From Hydrogenophilaceae bacterium (GTDB lineage: Bacteria; Pseudomonadota; Gammaproteobacteria; Burkholderiales; Thiobacillaceae), in assembly GCA_013389025.1 (NCBI GenBank), contig JACAED010000008.1:1-48082 (forward strand): a DNA stretch of 48,082 nt. The letters are read 5' to 3'. This document shows, one piece after another, positions 41,502 to 48,082 of the stretch. The notes beneath the pieces were generated by a model. That model was not told the DNA's origin. It saw only the letters and a list, made by a program, of their open reading frames with translations, and searched no databases. Position numbers and translations under genes: made by a program. Position 1 is the first letter of the stretch. Every line of letters starts with the position of its first letter.

Positions 41502-41574
41502 ATCCATGACAGACCATTGCACATGGTCAACAAAATATTCGTTTAATATCAATGATCTACATTATGCAGACGGT

Positions 41575-41590
41575 TGGCATAAAGTCTGCA
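41575..41590 (+). promoter_or_regulatory. Predicted sigma-54 promoter of the cytochrome operon
   Basis: TGGCATAAAGTCTGCA: TGGCA at -24, CTGCA at -12, correct spacing. About 50 bases separate it from the ATG at 41641, which has GGAGG eleven bases upstream. Confidence 0.72.
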
Positions 41591-41640
41591 TGGCCCTCTG
41601 GCGGCCCAGGAAACGGGCCCGGCAAACCGGAGGAAAACAA

Positions 41641-43146
41641 ATGAAAAAAGCATTGCATTGGTCTTTGCGCCATCGTCTGGCAATTGTTGCGATTGCCCTG
41701 ATCAGCGGATTCGCTGCCATCCTGGCTACCGCGCGCGTATCCATCGCGGAGGGCGGCATTGCCTTCCCCTACTACCCCGCGTTTCTCAAGGTGGAAATGA
41801 AAGCGGAAGGCGAAAAACCCATGCCGGAAAACTGGCAGGACCCGCAGGTTTGTGCCGGCTGCCATCCGCGCCAGTACAAGGGCTGGAGCACGTCCATGCA
41901 CTCCATTTCATTCAAGGACCCGGTGTTCCAGGCGGAATGGGCGCTGGCGCACAAGGCCACTGATGGCAAAACGCTCAACCATTGCGGCGGCTGCCATACC
42001 CCCATCGGCGTGGCAACCGGCACGGTCAAGTTTGATCCCGCGCTGGGCAAGCACGGCGGTTTCACGGCCCCGCCCATCGCCGAGAAAGGCGTTTCCTGCG
42101 ATGTCTGCCATACCATTTCCGGCACCACGGCCGTGCACACCTCGACCGGTAATCCGGGTAACGCCTCGTTTGTCATGTCGCCCGGCCGCGTCAAACGCGC
42201 CACGCTGAAGGACTCGAAATCCCCGTTCCACGATACCGAGTACTCGGAACTGCACACCAAGTCGGCTTTCTGTTCGAACTGCCACAATATTTTCCATCCG
42301 GACAACCGCTTCCCGGTCGAACATACCTTCGATGAATGGAAGGCCTCGCCTTATGCGCAAAACGGCATCCAGTGCCAGGATTGCCACATGGTGCCGGTGG
42401 ACACGGCCATCCGCGTGGCGGATGAAATGAAACCCGCCAGGGATCTGACTGATCACGGCCTCGGCGGCTTTGCCGGCATGGGCGCGAAGACCAAGCGCGA
42501 CATCGTGCACGATCACGGTTTCGTTGGCGGCAATACCGTCATCGCCGAAGCGCTGGGCGTCAAGGGCGCCTCCGATAACAAGGCCGAGGCATTGAAGCGT
42601 TTGCAGAATGCCGCCGAGCTGGACTTCGAAATCATCCCGGCCAAGGGCGGCGCCAACCTGCTCAAGGTCAAGGTCACCAACAAGCGGGCGGGACATCACC
42701 TGCCGACGAGCCTGACCTTCATCCGCCAGATCTGGCTGGAAGTGCACATCACCGATGATCAGGGCAACGAGCTGCTGAGTTCCGGCGTCGCGAAAAACAA
42801 TCATGTGCCAGCCGATGCGGTCACGTTCATCAATCGTTCGGTGGACAAGGACGGCAAACCCACCATCAATCCGTGGGAGATCGCCAACTTCGATCATCTG
42901 AACACCATTCCGCCCAAGGGCTTCCGCTACGGCGTGTACGCGTTCCATCTCCCCGCCAATGCCAAGGGCTTCAAGGTGCAGGCCAAGCTGCATTACCAGT
43001 CCTACGCGCAAGGCGTGGCGGACAAGTTGCTGGGTGAAGGCAAGCTGACCGTGCCCACCGTGGTGATGAAGGAACTGACGCGCGACTTCAGCGCGGCAGA
43101 TCTGAAATCCGCCGGGTCAAAATCGGAAAAAATTGCCGCTCGTTAA
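41641..43146 (+). CDS. Five-haem c-type cytochrome (cytochrome c554-like)
   Basis: 501 residues. The N-terminal helix (RLAIVAIALISGFAAILATA) may be a signal peptide or anchor. CxxCH sites: CAGCH (71-75), CGGCH (115-119), CDVCH (153-157), CSNCH (211-215), CQDCH (245-249). Several extra His residues between them could be axial ligands. The C-terminal half has no haem sites and is a beta-rich domain (GGANLLKVKVTNKRAGHHLP, FIRQIWLEVHITDDQGNELL). The layout recalls multihaem cytochromes of the c554 group, acting in the periplasm. It is first in a probable operon with a c4-like cytochrome and a peroxidase-type protein, behind a sigma-54 promoter. Redox partner and substrate are unknown. Confidence 0.86.
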   Translation: MKKALHWSLRHRLAIVAIALISGFAAILATARVSIAEGGIAFPYYPAFLKVEMKAEGEKPMPENWQDPQVCAGCHPRQYKGWSTSMHSISFKDPVFQAEWALAHKATDGKTLNHCGGCHTPIGVATGTVKFDPALGKHGGFTAPPIAEKGVSCDVCHTISGTTAVHTSTGNPGNASFVMSPGRVKRATLKDSKSPFHDTEYSELHTKSAFCSNCHNIFHPDNRFPVEHTFDEWKASPYAQNGIQCQDCHMVPVDTAIRVADEMKPARDLTDHGLGGFAGMGAKTKRDIVHDHGFVGGNTVIAEALGVKGASDNKAEALKRLQNAAELDFEIIPAKGGANLLKVKVTNKRAGHHLPTSLTFIRQIWLEVHITDDQGNELLSSGVAKNNHVPADAVTFINRSVDKDGKPTINPWEIANFDHLNTIPPKGFRYGVYAFHLPANAKGFKVQAKLHYQSYAQGVADKLLGEGKLTVPTVVMKELTRDFSAADLKSAGSKSEKIAAR

Positions 43147-43165
43147 ATTGAATGGAGAACTTGTC

Positions 43166-43735
43166 ATGACCACACTTTCAAAAATATCAGCGCTCATGGG
43201 ACTCTTGCTGGCTGTATCGGCCGTGCAGGCCGGTGATGCCGCCGCTGGCAAGTCCAAAGGCATGAAATGCATCAGCTGCCATGGACTGAAAGGGGTTTCC
43301 AGCAACTCTCAATACCCGAGCATTGCCGGACAAAAGGAGGCCTTCCTTGTTTCGCAAATGGAAGCCTTCAAAAGTGGCGCTCGTCCCGTGGCGGCCAAAT
43401 CCGCCTTGTTCGGCAGCCTGGCTTCAAATGATTTTGCGGATCTGGCGGCGCATTTCTCCGCGCTGCCGCCAGGCTCGTCGGGCAGCAAGGCTGATGCAGC
43501 CGTACTCGACAAGGGCAAGGCCGGTTACGAAATGTGTGCCGGCTGTCACGGAGCAGCCGGCGAAGGCAGTGACGCGGGGCCGCGCCTGGCTGGCCAGCAT
43601 TCCGCCTACCTGATTAAACGCCTGGGCGACTACAAGAGCGGCGCTGCACCCGATGAATCCATGAAGGGTATTGCCAGCGGCATGTCAACCGATGACATGG
43701 TTGCCGTATCGGAATTTCTCTCGTCGTTAAAATAA
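43166..43735 (+). CDS. Di-haem cytochrome c (c4-like)
   Basis: 189 residues from MTTLSKISALMGLLLAVSAV, signal peptide ending near VQAG. Two haem sites: KCISCHGLKG and MCAGCHGAAGEG, each with the class I segments QYPSIAGQKEAFLVSQMEAF and GPRLAGQHSAYLIKRLGDYK. A paralogue of the c4 gene at 39312. GGAGA precedes the ATG; an in-frame start 11 codons earlier overlaps the previous gene. Periplasmic electron transfer, possibly between the five-haem cytochrome and the peroxidase-type protein. Confidence 0.9.
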   Translation: MTTLSKISALMGLLLAVSAVQAGDAAAGKSKGMKCISCHGLKGVSSNSQYPSIAGQKEAFLVSQMEAFKSGARPVAAKSALFGSLASNDFADLAAHFSALPPGSSGSKADAAVLDKGKAGYEMCAGCHGAAGEGSDAGPRLAGQHSAYLIKRLGDYKSGAAPDESMKGIASGMSTDDMVAVSEFLSSLK

Positions 43736-43750
43736 ATAGCCGCATAGACC

Positions 43751-44782
43751 ATGCAAGGGATAGGACAGTCAGGTCTGCTGATAGTCGCCGCTTTGACGGC
43801 GCCGGCCGGGCTTGCCGAGGAATGGCTTGCCCTGCCGGATATTCCGCCAGTCCCCGCTGACAATCCCCAGACCAATGCCAAAATCGAATTGGGCAAGCAA
43901 CTTTTTTTCGATCCGCGTTTTTCCTCGACCGGCACCGTGTCCTGCAACTCCTGCCACAACCTGATGGCGGGTGGCGAGGACAGCCGCACGACATCCATGG
44001 GCGTACATGGTCTGGCCGGCCCGCGCAATGCGCCCACGGTCTGGAATTCGGCTTTCCACAGCGTGCAGTTCTGGGACGGCCGCGCGGGAAGCCTCGAGGA
44101 ACAGGCCAAGGGTCCGGTTATCGCACAAGTGGAAATGGGCATGCGCTCGCTCGATGAAGCCATCGCCCGCGTGCGGCAAATTCCTGGGTACGTCGAGCAG
44201 TTCAGAAATGTTTTTGGCGGCGAGAATGCCGTCACGGTCGACAACGCGGCAAAAGCCGTCGCCGCGTTCGAACGCACACTCGTCACACCCGGCAGCGCCT
44301 ACGACCGCTTTGCCAAGGGTGATGAATCGGCGCTGAACGCACAACAGCAGCGCGGTCTGAAGCGTTTCAACGAACTGGGCTGCACGGGCTGTCACCGGCC
44401 GCCCGCGTTCAGTGGCCCCTGGCTGGCTGGCGGATTTTTCGTGACCTTCCCGTTTCACGACAGCCCCCATGTCACGCAATACAAATTGCGTGACGACAGT
44501 GGCCGCGAAGCGGTGACAAAAGACCCCGCCGACAGGCACAAGTACCGGGTGCCCACGCTTCGCAACGTGGCGCTGGGCGCGCCGTACTTTCACAACGGCG
44601 CCGTCCCCACCCTGAGCGAAGCCGTGCAGGTGATGGCGGCCTCGCAACTTGGCATCAAGCTGAACGAAGCCGATACCGCCGACATCGTGGCCTTTCTCGG
44701 TGCGCTGACCGGCCCCTTCCCGGCCATGAGCCTGCCACGCCTGCCAGCCACACCAGGAGTCAGCATTGTTCCGGCAAACTGA
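43751..44782 (+). CDS. Di-haem cytochrome c peroxidase/MauG-family protein
   Basis: 343 residues with two haem sites, SCNSCHNLMAGGEDSRTTSM and GCTGCHRPPAFSG. The family segments FDPRFSSTGTVSC, GRAGSLEEQAKGPV, RVPTLRNVALGAPYFHNGAV and ADIVAFLGALTG are all present. Members reduce hydrogen peroxide using two haems, or oxidise protein substrates (MauG). The signal peptide (MQGIGQSGLLIVAALTAPAG) has no basic residue, which is unusual; an in-frame stop just upstream rules out a longer N-terminus. It lies 15 bases after the c4-like gene. Confidence 0.9.
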   Translation: MQGIGQSGLLIVAALTAPAGLAEEWLALPDIPPVPADNPQTNAKIELGKQLFFDPRFSSTGTVSCNSCHNLMAGGEDSRTTSMGVHGLAGPRNAPTVWNSAFHSVQFWDGRAGSLEEQAKGPVIAQVEMGMRSLDEAIARVRQIPGYVEQFRNVFGGENAVTVDNAAKAVAAFERTLVTPGSAYDRFAKGDESALNAQQQRGLKRFNELGCTGCHRPPAFSGPWLAGGFFVTFPFHDSPHVTQYKLRDDSGREAVTKDPADRHKYRVPTLRNVALGAPYFHNGAVPTLSEAVQVMAASQLGIKLNEADTADIVAFLGALTGPFPAMSLPRLPATPGVSIVPAN

Positions 44783-44981: not shown

Positions 44982-45629
44982 ATGAAGCGTATTTCCGCAT
45001 TGCTGGCGGCTCTTGTGCTTGCCAGCCCGATTCTTTCCAATGGCGCGACCACCGAGCCGCCCATGGGCAAACTGCTTTATCTGCCCCCGCAGCCCGTCAA
45101 CGTACCTGCCAACATGGTGGCTGTACCGGTGGCTATCTGGTCGAACGGGCAGGTGTTCATGCAGTGGATGTTCGTGCCCGCGCAAGCGCTGGCCAACATG
45201 CCCGCCCTCGCGCCACCGGTCGCGGCAGCGGTAACCGCTCCCGCTTCCGCCGCCACAACGGCGGTTTCTACTGCCACCTCCGCCGCCGCTGCCATGCCTG
45301 CGGCGGCCACGGCTGCCGCCACCGCGGTGACATCCGCACCCAGCGCCGCCGCCACGGCTGCCGTGAACATGGCCGGAAAGCTCACCGGGTCAACGGCAAC
45401 CCATGCCCGCTCCATGGCCGCCACCTGTTATTCATGCCATGGCACAGACGGCAAGAGCCACTCCGCCATTCCGCCATTGGCCGGCATGGACAAAAGCTAT
45501 TTCATCGAACAGATGAAGGATTTCAAGTCCGGCAAGCGCGAAGCCACGGTCATGCACCAGCATGCCAAGGGCTACACCGATGAAGAATTCGCGCAAATGG
45601 CAGACGTCTTTGCCGCCGTCAAACCCTGA
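44982..45629 (+). CDS. fccA: Cytochrome subunit of flavocytochrome c sulfide dehydrogenase, unusual N-terminal domain
   Basis: 215 residues with a signal peptide (MKRISALLAALVLASPILSN). Three parts: a short domain with TTEPPMGKLLYLPPQPVNVP and AIWSNGQVFMQWMFVPAQAL; an Ala-rich linker of about 55 residues; and a C-terminal mono-haem class I domain, TCYSCHGTDGKSHSAIPPLA to EEFAQMADVFAAVKP. That haem domain and the adjacent flavoprotein identify it as FccA, which takes electrons from FccB during sulfide oxidation. The N-terminal domain and linker are not part of the FccA types I know (mono-haem of about 10 kDa or di-haem of about 20 kDa). AAGGAGGAAG precedes the ATG. Confidence 0.82.
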   Translation: MKRISALLAALVLASPILSNGATTEPPMGKLLYLPPQPVNVPANMVAVPVAIWSNGQVFMQWMFVPAQALANMPALAPPVAAAVTAPASAATTAVSTATSAAAAMPAAATAAATAVTSAPSAAATAAVNMAGKLTGSTATHARSMAATCYSCHGTDGKSHSAIPPLAGMDKSYFIEQMKDFKSGKREATVMHQHAKGYTDEEFAQMADVFAAVKP

Positions 45630-45641
45630 GGAGACAAGAAC

Positions 45642-46898
45642 ATGAGCATGCAAAGACGCGATTTCCTGAAAGCCTCATCCGCCGGCCTGATCGCGGCCGG
45701 TCTGCCGTTGCGCGCCCATGGTGCAGCCGTGAAAGCCAAGGTCGTGATCGTGGGTGCCGGCTTTGGCGGGGCCACAGCAGCCAAATACATCCGCAAATGG
45801 GATTCGAACATCGAGGTCACGCTGATCGATCGCGAAGCCAAGTTCGTCTCCTGTCCGCTGTCCAACCTCGTGCTCGCAGGCCTTAAAACGCTTGACGACA
45901 TCAGCCGCACCTATGACGGCCTGAAGTCGCATGGCGTCAATGTGGTCGTGGACGAAGTCACCGCCATCGACACCGACAAGCGCGTGGTCAAGACCGCCAA
46001 GGGCAGCTTTCCCTATGATCGTCTCATCGTCTCGCCCGGCATCGACTTCCTGTTCGACCAGATCGAGGGCTATGACGCCAAGGCGCAGGAAACCATCCTG
46101 CACGCCTGGAAAGCCGGCCCGCAGACTTTGAAGCTGCGCCAGCAAATCGAATCCATGCCCGATGGCGGGCTCATTGTCGTTGGCATGCCGCTGGCCCCCT
46201 ACCGCTGCCCGCCCGGGCCGTATGAGCGCGTGTGCCTGATGGCCAACTACCTCAAGCGCGCCAAGCCGAAATCCAAGATCATCATGCTGGATGCCAATCC
46301 GGACGTGGCGTCGAAAAAACCCTTGTTCATGAAGGCCTGGAACACGCTGTACAAGGACTGGGTGGAGTATCGGCCCAACAGCAAGGTGCTGAAAGTCAGC
46401 GCCGACAAGATGACCGTCAGCACGGAGTTCGAAGACCTGAAGGCCAACGTGATTAATATCATCCCGCCGCAACGTGCCGGGCATGTGGCCGAACTGGCCG
46501 GGGTGCGCACCGACTCGAATGGTGTCTGGTGCCCCGCCAGTTTCGTCACCTACGAATCCAAATCCAAGCCTTTCGTTCACGTCATTGGCGACTCATTGCT
46601 TTCAAACTTTCCCAAGTCGGGCCACATGGCCAACAACATGGGCAAGGTGTGCGCCAATGCCATCGTCGAACTGCTCAATGGCCGCGAACCCAATCCCGTC
46701 CCCATCGTCGCCAATACCTGCTATAGCGCAGTGAGCGAAGACAAGGCCATCCACGTCGCCACCGTCTTCCGCTACGACCCGGTCAAGGACCAGATGACGG
46801 CACAGCCAGGTGGGGGAATATCTGCCGACCTGTCCGAGGTGGAGGCAGTCTATGCCGAAGCCTGGGCGGAAGGCATCTGGGGCGATGTGTTCTCCTGA
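45642..46898 (+). CDS. fccB: Flavocytochrome c sulfide dehydrogenase, FAD subunit
   Basis: 418 residues. Twin-arginine signal MQRRDFLKASSAG, so it is exported folded. The FAD-binding VVIVGAGFGGATAAKYI is followed by FVSCPLSNLVLAG (Cys71, where FccB attaches FAD covalently). The redox Cys pair appears as Cys188 (APYRCPPGPYE) and Cys359 (ANTCYSAVSED). VHVIGDSLLS and PKSGHMANN complete the fold. It oxidises sulfide in the periplasm and passes electrons to FccA, whose gene ends 12 bases upstream. GAGGAGA precedes the ATG. A terminator follows. Confidence 0.95.
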   Translation: MSMQRRDFLKASSAGLIAAGLPLRAHGAAVKAKVVIVGAGFGGATAAKYIRKWDSNIEVTLIDREAKFVSCPLSNLVLAGLKTLDDISRTYDGLKSHGVNVVVDEVTAIDTDKRVVKTAKGSFPYDRLIVSPGIDFLFDQIEGYDAKAQETILHAWKAGPQTLKLRQQIESMPDGGLIVVGMPLAPYRCPPGPYERVCLMANYLKRAKPKSKIIMLDANPDVASKKPLFMKAWNTLYKDWVEYRPNSKVLKVSADKMTVSTEFEDLKANVINIIPPQRAGHVAELAGVRTDSNGVWCPASFVTYESKSKPFVHVIGDSLLSNFPKSGHMANNMGKVCANAIVELLNGREPNPVPIVANTCYSAVSEDKAIHVATVFRYDPVKDQMTAQPGGGISADLSEVEAVYAEAWAEGIWGDVFS

Positions 46899-46921: not shown

Positions 46922-46951
46922 CCGGCGGGTGCCCTTCCCGCCGGTTTTTTT
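46922..46951 (+). terminator. Terminator after fccB
   Basis: CCGGCGGG-TGCCCTT-CCCGCCGG followed by T residues, about 25 bases after the fccB stop. Confidence 0.9.
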
Positions 46952-47017
46952 AAACCATTGGCCCGTTTTCCATAATTGGAGGATAGTGAACCTCCCCAAA
47001 CCCCAAATCAAGGAAAC

Positions 47018-47662
47018 ATGATGAAACTCAAACTGATCTCCGCGTTGACGCTCGCCTTTACCAGCACTGCCTTTGCGCAAGGACCCACGCCTGCCACCCC
47101 GGAAGCCTGGGCGGCCAAAATGACCGACCCGACCCAGAATGCCTCCGCCTTCAAGGATCCCCGTGCATTTATCCAGTGGAGCAATGCCATGGCCAACCCG
47201 ACCATGATCCCCGCCATGGGCAATGTCATGATGGACCCCGGCATGTATGCCCGCATGGCCTACGGCATGATGAGCCCGGGCGCGTTCCAGAATTACATGC
47301 AGTTCACCGATCCCAATGTGGCCATGAAATGGATGGGCGCCGGCATGGATCCGAATTTCTATACCGCCATGGCCGCGCCCATGATGAACCCCGCCAATTA
47401 CATGAACTGGATGATGGCGCCCATGGACCCCCGCATGATGAACATGGGCATGCAGATGATGAACCCGGGCATGTACGCCAACTGGATGGCTGCGCCAATG
47501 GACCCGAAAATGATGAGTCTGATGGCTGCCCCCATGAACCCGCAGGTATATGGTGCCTGGATGGGTACAGTCGCCGACCCACGCACCTATCCCCTGATGC
47601 AACCGCTACAGGTGCCGGCCGCCGGTGCTGAACCTGTGCCTTTCCCAATGCCGGCAAAATGA
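47018..47662 (+). CDS. Methionine-rich secreted protein of 12-13-residue repeats
   Basis: 214 residues with a signal peptide (MKLKLISALTLAFTSTAFAQ). By my count 39 residues are Met (about 18%) and there is no Cys or His. From about residue 45 to 195 the chain consists of about ten tandem units of the form (M/T/A)(D/N/S)Pxx(Y/F/M)xxWMxxP, for example MDPNFYTAMAAPM, MNPANYMNWMMAP, MNPGMYANWMAAP, MDPKMMSLMAAP and MNPQVYGAWMGTV. I do not recognise a characterised family. The regular DP/NP-aromatic-Met pattern suggests a solenoid or a metal- or sulfur-binding surface. It lies between fccB and soxY; AAGGAA precedes the ATG. Confidence 0.85.
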   Translation: MMKLKLISALTLAFTSTAFAQGPTPATPEAWAAKMTDPTQNASAFKDPRAFIQWSNAMANPTMIPAMGNVMMDPGMYARMAYGMMSPGAFQNYMQFTDPNVAMKWMGAGMDPNFYTAMAAPMMNPANYMNWMMAPMDPRMMNMGMQMMNPGMYANWMAAPMDPKMMSLMAAPMNPQVYGAWMGTVADPRTYPLMQPLQVPAAGAEPVPFPMPAK

Positions 47663-47683: not shown

Positions 47684-48082
47684 ATGAATGCAATGCGCAG
47701 AAACGTTCTGAAAGGCGCCGGTGGTTTTGGCGCCCTGTCGGTTGCCGTGGCCGCAGGCCTGTTGAAGCCGACACACGTGCTGGCTGACTGGAACAAGTCG
47801 GCTTTCGAGGCAACCCAGAAAGAGGCAGCGCTTTCAGCCATCGGCGGCGCCAGCGCCGAGGCCTCTGACAAAATCACCATCAAGGCTCCTGACATTGCCG
47901 AGAACGGCGCGGTCGTGCCGGTGGAAATCACTGCAAACCTGCCAGGCCTGGAGTCGATTGCCATTCTCAGTGAAAAGAACACCACCCCCCTGGTAGGCGT
48001 CTACAAGATGACCGATACCGATGGCTACCTCTCCACCCGCATCAAGATGGGCGCAACCGCCAACGTGCGCGCCATCGTCAAG
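47684..48082 (+). CDS. soxY: Thiosulfate-oxidation carrier SoxY, cut by window edge
   Basis: 133 residues are visible. Twin-arginine signal MRRNVLKGAGGFGALSVAVA, then the SoxY body: ASDKITIKAPDIAENGAVVP, VEITANLPGLESIAILSEKN and a later DGYLSTRIKMGATANVRAIV. SoxY carries sulfur intermediates on a C-terminal GGCGG cysteine in the periplasm with SoxZ; that end lies beyond the window. AGGAGA precedes the ATG at 47684. soxZ and other sox genes probably follow. Confidence 0.92.
   Translation, partial: MNAMRRNVLKGAGGFGALSVAVAAGLLKPTHVLADWNKSAFEATQKEAALSAIGGASAEASDKITIKAPDIAENGAVVPVEITANLPGLESIAILSEKNTTPLVGVYKMTDTDGYLSTRIKMGATANVRAIVK

Follow-up and report, generated by a model that had tools for sequence, protein, structure and literature searches.

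Introduction

Several described systems resemble the protein analysed here in one feature or another. MrpX is a small, secreted, Met-rich scavenger of the periplasm, whose Met residues are reported to be re-reduced by a periplasmic methionine sulfoxide reductase, and MrpX-type genes adjoin msrP/msrQ or an ECF sigma/anti-sigma pair. The sulfur globule proteins SgpA-C are rich in Gly, Asn and Tyr. Sgt2 has a Met-rich region that binds its clients, and STI1 domains hold theirs in a hydrophobic groove, as described in passages of PMC8010706.

On the side of sulfur oxidation, DUF302 genes have been noted in sox operons and a role in the oxidation of trithionate has been guessed (passages of PMC5037610 and PMC5248467). 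The passages of these two papers that deal with DUF302 make no mention of a repeat protein. DUF302 genes of sox clusters appear also in passages of PMC10512742, and the sox clusters of Sulfitobacter hold DUF302 together with YeeE genes (a passage of PMC11034169). SoxT/YeeE proteins mediate the import of sulfur for oxidation (PMC11582611, of 2024). According to passages of the same paper, Hyphomicrobium transports the second thiosulfate sulfur 'by unknown means'; SoxT is proposed there as the importer, the donors being unproven.

Here we describe a gene located between fccB and soxY in a window of 48,082 nucleotides (the whole stretch of DNA that was analysed) from a member of the Thiobacillaceae. 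An earlier interpretation made from the letters alone (the sequence-only reading) had suggested for its product, a Met-rich protein of about ten repeats, a role as an unrecognised periplasmic part of sulfur oxidation, binding for example copper, sulfur chains or sulfur globules. The comparisons reported below suggest an overlooked part of sulfur handling outside the cell membrane.

The repeat gene and its neighbourhood

The features of the locus are collected in Table 1. The repeat gene has two possible starts, and an AAGGA motif reads as better placed upstream of the second ATG (47021) than of the first (47018). From the second ATG the protein has 213 residues, of which 38 are Met and 6 are Trp, and it contains neither Cys nor His; counted from the first it has 214 residues and 39 Met, exactly the composition that the sequence-only reading had given (about 39 Met in 214 residues, no Cys or His). 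Met makes up 18% of the protein and is clustered (MMAPMDPRMMNMGMQMM). The open reading frame, the signal-peptide-like N terminus and the repeats that should follow it are all present. The hydrophobic start ending in AFA is probably a signal peptide, in which case the protein would be exported. The repeats of 12-13 residues, put at about ten, turned out to be more regular than claimed, with 13 [DNS]P motifs at successive spacings of 10, 13, 13, 13, 12, 13, 13, 13, 12, 13, 12 and 13. A partner at +12 or +13 is found for 11 of these 13 motifs. When the mature sequence was shuffled 20,000 times, the number of motifs with such a partner averaged 0.13 and never exceeded 3.

Table 1. Coordinates of the repeat gene, its parts and the surrounding island within the window.
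Feature	Position	Strand	Basis or remark
Cytochrome c554-like multihaem gene of the island	41506..43146	+	PF13435 9.3e-10
Cytochrome c of the island	43133..43735	+	PF00034 3.6e-15
Di-haem peroxidase/MauG-like gene of the island	43751..44782	+	PF03150 2.7e-58
fccA-like cytochrome c, with a long Ala-rich N-terminal extension before the haem domain	44982..45629	+	PF00034 1.1e-4; fccA by position
fccB, flavocytochrome c sulfide dehydrogenase flavoprotein	45642..46898	+	PF21706 1.6e-42, PF09242 1.7e-19
Hairpin resembling an intrinsic terminator (8 G-C pairs, then T7), past fccB and before the repeat gene	46922..46954	+	conservation
DP-repeat ('MET') gene, 213 aa + stop	47021..47662	+	codes for repeat protein P0001; alternative start 47018
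Signal-peptide-like N terminus (MKLKLISALTLAFTSTAFA)	47021..47077	+	read from sequence
DP/NP helical repeats in tandem, about 13 units of 12-13 residues	47126..47614	+	motif spacing, shuffles, helix starts in the model
soxY, truncated at the contig end; lies 21 bases past the repeat gene	47684..48082	+	PF13501 3.2e-22

The neighbours are the ones named in the sequence-only reading, a sulfide dehydrogenase upstream (PF21706, PF09242) and SoxY downstream (PF13501), and the six flanking genes consist of cytochromes, the MauG-like gene, fccB and soxY. Homologues of the MauG-like gene are also found near the repeat gene at L146, L160, L184 and L239. The hairpin between fccB and the repeat gene (46922-46944, then T7), which the sequence-only reading did not mention, keeps its stem with changed bases in all four aligned loci. 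The whole scan gave 4 terminator-like sites against a shuffle mean of 3.7, which is no excess, so that the case for this hairpin is its conservation. The repeat gene and soxY therefore probably have a common transcript, separable from fccB.

Predicted structure and database comparisons

Structure prediction had been proposed as a check of the repeat, and AlphaFold2 (81 sequences) returned a confident all-helical repeat, with a mean pLDDT of 83 and a pTM of 0.68. The model has fifteen helices of 7-12 residues each, the first of them in the signal region. Thirteen follow a [DNS]P motif, and since 12 of these begin exactly at its Pro (the other one two residues later), the motif caps the helix. 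A Foldseek comparison with the PDB gave 13 matches, none with an E value under 1, and VIA gave a single row with Z 2.5, a value that argues neither way about the fold; the predicted fold is therefore one that Foldseek does not recognise in the PDB, from which it does not follow that the fold is novel.

At the sequence level, the protein matched no Pfam family at E values up to 1, STI1-type models included, and its best NCBIfam match (E 0.37) was far under the cut-off. Membership in a known family with another function, an outcome that the sequence-only reading had named as speaking against it, was thus not found in Pfam or NCBIfam. Sequence searches of the PDB gave three weak matches (best E 0.031), two (best 0.14) and none, tblastn searches of plasmids and phages gave no match to the repeat family, and searches of an open-access paper library, judged from titles and the openings of abstracts, gave no paper on it. 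This family of helical-repeat proteins was found in none of the databases searched.

Paralogues in the Thiobacillaceae

The source genome (75% complete) carries four copies of the repeat family. The family was present in 19 of the 61 genomes searched, namely in 19 of the 37 that belong to the same bacterial family and in none of the 24 from others. Over 117 Thiobacillaceae genomes, 52 have 3-10 matches each (fragments counted) and the other 65 have none; among the best assemblies it is present in 27 of 59. The distribution is all-or-none per genome, even inside one genus. Repeat genes were searched in all six frames; simple codon-score gene calling misses some that lie in overlapping frames (L182, L186).

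The copies occupy conserved genomic places (gene names here and below were mostly read from the sequence). These are cysS/mla; fthC/zapA, accompanied either by a liv operon or by a gene for an AGCS transporter; hydrogenase genes; hppA/pfp/adk; miaB-ybeY; and the sulfur islands. A tree of 136 copies, in which copies sharing the last 120 residues were entered once, follows these places; the loci that came from one of the searches are the best 80 of 90. At L020-L026, L033-L041 and other loci a conserved paralogue stands beside a divergent small gene, weakly DUF72-like, followed by the mla operon, often with cysS opposite. A group of Met-poor paralogues (L135, L156, L163) adjoins genes that read as NiFe hydrogenase and maturation protease genes. 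The copy at the fthC or ybeY locus may be followed by a second gene in tandem; its product is in most cases poor in Met and has RY at the C terminus (QRY, YRY or RRY), as at L012, L013, L016, L018, L064, L067, L071, L076 and L082.

The longest members have an additional domain. Each of the 14 members that reach 400 aa (407-547 aa; L030, L042, L045, L127, L130, L134, L140, L148, L153, L161, L167, L173, L177 and L180) carries a C-terminal, peptidoglycan-binding OmpA domain after the repeat, assigned by Pfam in three of them and in the remainder by a profile built from those three. L151, with 388 residues, is without it. There is one OmpA paralogue per genome in the 11 genomes with repeat loci that were examined, a count that leaves out one small fragment in G022 and does not include G025, of which a single locus was examined. 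The four copies of the source assembly include no OmpA member, which its incompleteness could explain.

Copies in sulfur islands

The order fccB-MET-soxY of the window is found at four loci, the other three being in G008 (L125), G106 (L043/L186) and G122 (L031/L185). In another arrangement the genes DUF302, MET and fccB follow one another; six genomes have it, at eight loci in all (L146, L147, L160, L182, L183, L184, L237 and L239), in six of the eight with a cytochrome gene between MET and fccB. Some contigs carry two labels (L031/L185, L043/L186, L055/L122 and others), and the island counts are of distinct loci; many islands were chosen for a nearby repeat gene or for their DUF302 type, so that their number is no unbiased frequency. 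SoxYZ, rhodanese and molybdopterin oxidoreductase genes are close by in several islands, and at L125 and L186 a DUF302 gene comes after soxYZ.

The linkage with fccB/soxYZ recurs beyond chance, as should be the case for a component of Sox/Fcc islands. In the 19 genomes for which the lists are complete, with 91 repeat loci and 59 FCSD domains, 6 pairs lie within 2.5 kb of each other against 0.65 expected (Poisson p 6e-5, an optimistic value given that the genomes are related), and one of the six (G016:C1) is a divergent neighbour and not an island. The listed SoxY matches of the same genomes gave no further pair with repeat loci, and 85 of the 91 repeat loci are farther than 5 kb from any FCSD domain. 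Conversely, fifteen other soxY loci of genomes that bear the family (L187-L201, hand-picked) have no repeat gene in any frame, nor do five loci with fccB and DUF302 (L238, L241, L242, L243, L246). At three of these last, L242, L243 and L246, DUF302 and fccB form a unit, in L242 and L246 with fccA as well. Contig C45 of the source genome G000 (L245) holds two DUF302 genes and a third partial match.

The careful tree places island copies in a single clade of 11 rows (support 89/97), the window copy inside it. Seven of these rows are in fcc/sox islands, one (L145) is two genes away from a DUF302 gene and three are elsewhere. The seven strict island copies do not form a clade of their own, an arrangement rejected with an AU p of 0.0004, as L145 and the three others nest among them; the four fccB-MET-soxY rows group with a support of only 59/10. 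Among the 117 Thiobacillaceae genomes SoxY is found in 100, FCSD in 104, a DUF302 relative in 113 and the repeat family in 52. With SoxY and FCSD nearly universal, the repeat family is dispensable for sulfur oxidation as such, and the same counts reject the idea that it simply tracks fccB or soxY.

Relatives in other bacterial families

Distant relatives were found in 13 genomes outside the Thiobacillaceae, from seven families. A scan of 399 genomes of the order gave 2 outside the family and one of 369 genomes of the class gave 7, while two single families gave 3 of 22 and 3 of 121, each of these threes including one of the two from the order. The outside genomes searched have one or two matches each. 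The similarity does not come from a shared composition in Met and Pro, an explanation rejected by the scores of the family profile, which gives five distant relatives 73-208 bits (129 for L236); none of 1,500 shuffles scores above 5.5, and no reversed sequence above 38.8.

The genes around some of these relatives are again linked to sulfur. A DUF302 gene directly adjoins the repeat gene at L202, L203, L220, L221, L235 and L236 (two families), and L236 has the order repeat-DUF302-repeat-soxY-soxZ-cytochrome-fccB. In a third family (L227), a single cytochrome-like gene separates the DUF302 gene from a repeat gene that matches weakly (E 2e-6), whereas the distance from DUF302 to the clearly matching one is about 4 kb; the genes there are the cytochrome-like one (no Pfam family), DUF302, soxZ, soxY and a sigma-54 activator. 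Sulfur transporters of the PF04143 type were identified by Pfam at L202, L203, L227, L234 and L235. In a fourth family (L234:7342-8598), DUF302 forms a fusion with an NP repeat rich in Met (NPAMMMNPMMGMM). This repeat is only weakly related to the repeat family (E 2e-8), and PF04143 and DsrE2 genes lie near the fusion. No DUF302 was found at L226, a contig of 3 kb, or at L228-L233; overall, a separate DUF302 gene is absent from the examined stretch in 6 of the 13 outside genomes, counting G606, where the stretch is only 3 kb, and G697, which has the fusion.

The sulfur genes around this copy and around relatives in three other bacterial families (in a fourth only weakly) make it plausible that sulfur oxidation has a periplasmic component not recognised before. 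Part of the evidence goes against the proposal: a distribution of homologues away from sulfur genes had been named as contrary evidence, and most paralogues do lie elsewhere, at conserved places without fcc or sox.

Methionine content

Homologues within the Thiobacillaceae range from 1.5% to 23% Met, and relatives reach up to 30%. We have defined as Met columns the 36 alignment columns with at least 40% Met in 52 Met-rich rows; alignment A2 leaves out L034, L086, L090 and eleven further rows, mostly Met-poor second genes, and keeps L043. In 27 Met-poor rows these columns are 77% hydrophobic (Met included) and 17% polar, against 41% and 42% in the 139 other columns of the same rows, and what they hold in the Met-poor relatives is mostly Leu, Ala or Val. 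The relative in the DUF302-soxYZ-fccB cluster of L236 has 4 Met in 409 residues, that is 1%. Met is neither an essential nor a defining feature of the family, which weakens the earlier suggestion of copper binding and, with it, any chemistry strictly based on Met.

The clade of 11 rows contains the most Met-rich copy of the genome in all six genomes that have a clade member, among the 12 compared. That the island copy is always the most Met-rich one in its genome was rejected; among the cases given it is true only for G000 and G008, the island copies ranking second and fourth in G016 and second in G029.

Possible functions

Because the same repeat is found at loci unrelated to sulfur, the most economical view is a general scaffold with a specialised version in the sulfur islands. 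We tentatively favour this view, as a possibility that falls a little short of probable. The proteins would be binding scaffolds of general use outside the cytoplasm, and the version in the sulfur islands would be a periplasmic scaffold or carrier acting with DUF302 in sulfur handling. Each unit of 12-13 residues starts with a helix-capping Asp/Asn-Pro and forms one short amphipathic helix, and about thirteen such helices would stack into an elongated repeat. The sulfur-linked copies, located in the periplasm as we infer, would present a hydrophobic groove lined with Met and Trp as a scaffold or carrier. Together with the DUF302 protein this groove would act on sulfane-sulfur intermediates or on partner proteins of FccAB/SoxYZ, a step that may be placed upstream of the sulfur importer. 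The paralogues would take the same repeat to other jobs in the envelope, one of them tied to peptidoglycan through its OmpA domain. A much more specific form is a distinctly unlikely one, in which the sulfur-island copies would be an extracytoplasmic 'sulfur chaperone', a Met-lined solenoid that noncovalently cradles chains of elemental sulfur or polysulfane and passes them from FccAB or SoxYZ, with DUF302, to an importer of the SoxT/YeeE type. If true, it would fill the poorly understood handover from periplasm to cytoplasm in sulfur oxidation.

The all-or-none distribution with 3-10 matches per genome, the OmpA domain on all 14 of the longest members (400 aa or more), with one such member per genome in 11 genomes, and the conserved positions without fcc or sox genes would be expected if the repeat proteins were a general scaffold of the envelope, assembling with one another on the OmpA paralogue anchored to peptidoglycan, the copy between fccB and soxY having no task specific to sulfur. 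We regard this as somewhat unlikely, since it leaves unexplained why in other families, with one or two matches per genome, the repeat is paired with DUF302 and sulfur genes. A low-complexity, hydrophobic repeat protein with a secreted look in a sulfur island could also coat sulfur globules; however, paralogues stand at loci that we read as hydrogenase, mla and hppA, and the composition is unlike that of the Gly/Asn/Tyr-rich SgpA-C, which makes this very improbable.

Two other explanations rely on the Met residues themselves. A protein with 18% Met and no Cys or His, and with relatives of up to 30% Met, could be a sacrificial antioxidant, in which Met would absorb reactive oxygen, chlorine or sulfur species and be re-reduced by a periplasmic methionine sulfoxide reductase, as reported for MrpX. 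Yet in the Met-poor relatives the Met columns are hydrophobic to 77%, so that Met mostly takes the place of buried-type Leu, Ala or Val, the L236 relative, in a similar gene setting, has only 4 Met among its 409 residues, and no msr gene was found in a scan of the six flanking genes; we hold this role to be quite improbable. The clustered Met (MMAPMDPRMMNMGMQMM) could also bind Cu(I) in the periplasm through their thioethers, but the protein has no His or Cys and the family does not conserve Met at its Met positions, which makes this explanation barely credible.

The route by which sulfane sulfur enters the cytoplasm from the enzymes of the periplasm is still under study, and under the favoured reading, a binding scaffold specialised in the sulfur islands, the repeat protein is a concrete candidate for a handling step. 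The candidate rests on its recurrence, across several bacterial families, alongside DUF302 and genes for SoxYZ/FccB or PF04143 transporters, and the DUF302 genes of sox operons gain with it a possible partner. The expansion within the Thiobacillaceae, with 3-10 matches or none and one copy carrying an OmpA domain, points to an undescribed repeat system of the envelope.

Comparison with known systems

Like MrpX, the window protein is small, secreted-looking and rich in Met; however, the six flanking genes scanned include neither msrPQ nor genes for an ECF sigma/anti-sigma pair, and Met is not conserved in the family. Conserved Met/His ligands of the kind found in copper-binding Met-rich proteins were likewise not seen, as there is no His, no Cys and no conservation of Met. 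The DUF302 genes of sox clusters are similarly located in sox/fcc islands, but DUF302 is a neighbour and not the repeat protein. Importers of the SoxT/YeeE type (PF04143) have their genes beside the repeat-DUF302 pair in other families; these are membrane transporters, again neighbours only, and their orthology with SoxT is putative.

The STI1/DP domains of Sti1/Hop, Sgt2/SGTA and ubiquilin share with the window protein short amphipathic helices and helix-breaking prolines. Short helices separated by DP or NP, as in domains of the STI1/ubiquilin type, are present in it according to both the motif spacing and the model. Three of the distant relatives (L203, L220 and L221) score above the cut-off of PF23195 (UBQLN1) as whole proteins, with no single stretch passing. 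Unlike the STI1 domains, which are a five-helix hand, the window protein has about thirteen units, is bacterial, starts with a signal-peptide-like segment and has no Pfam match. With its putative hydrophobic groove it may work like an STI1 domain rather than be a member of that family.
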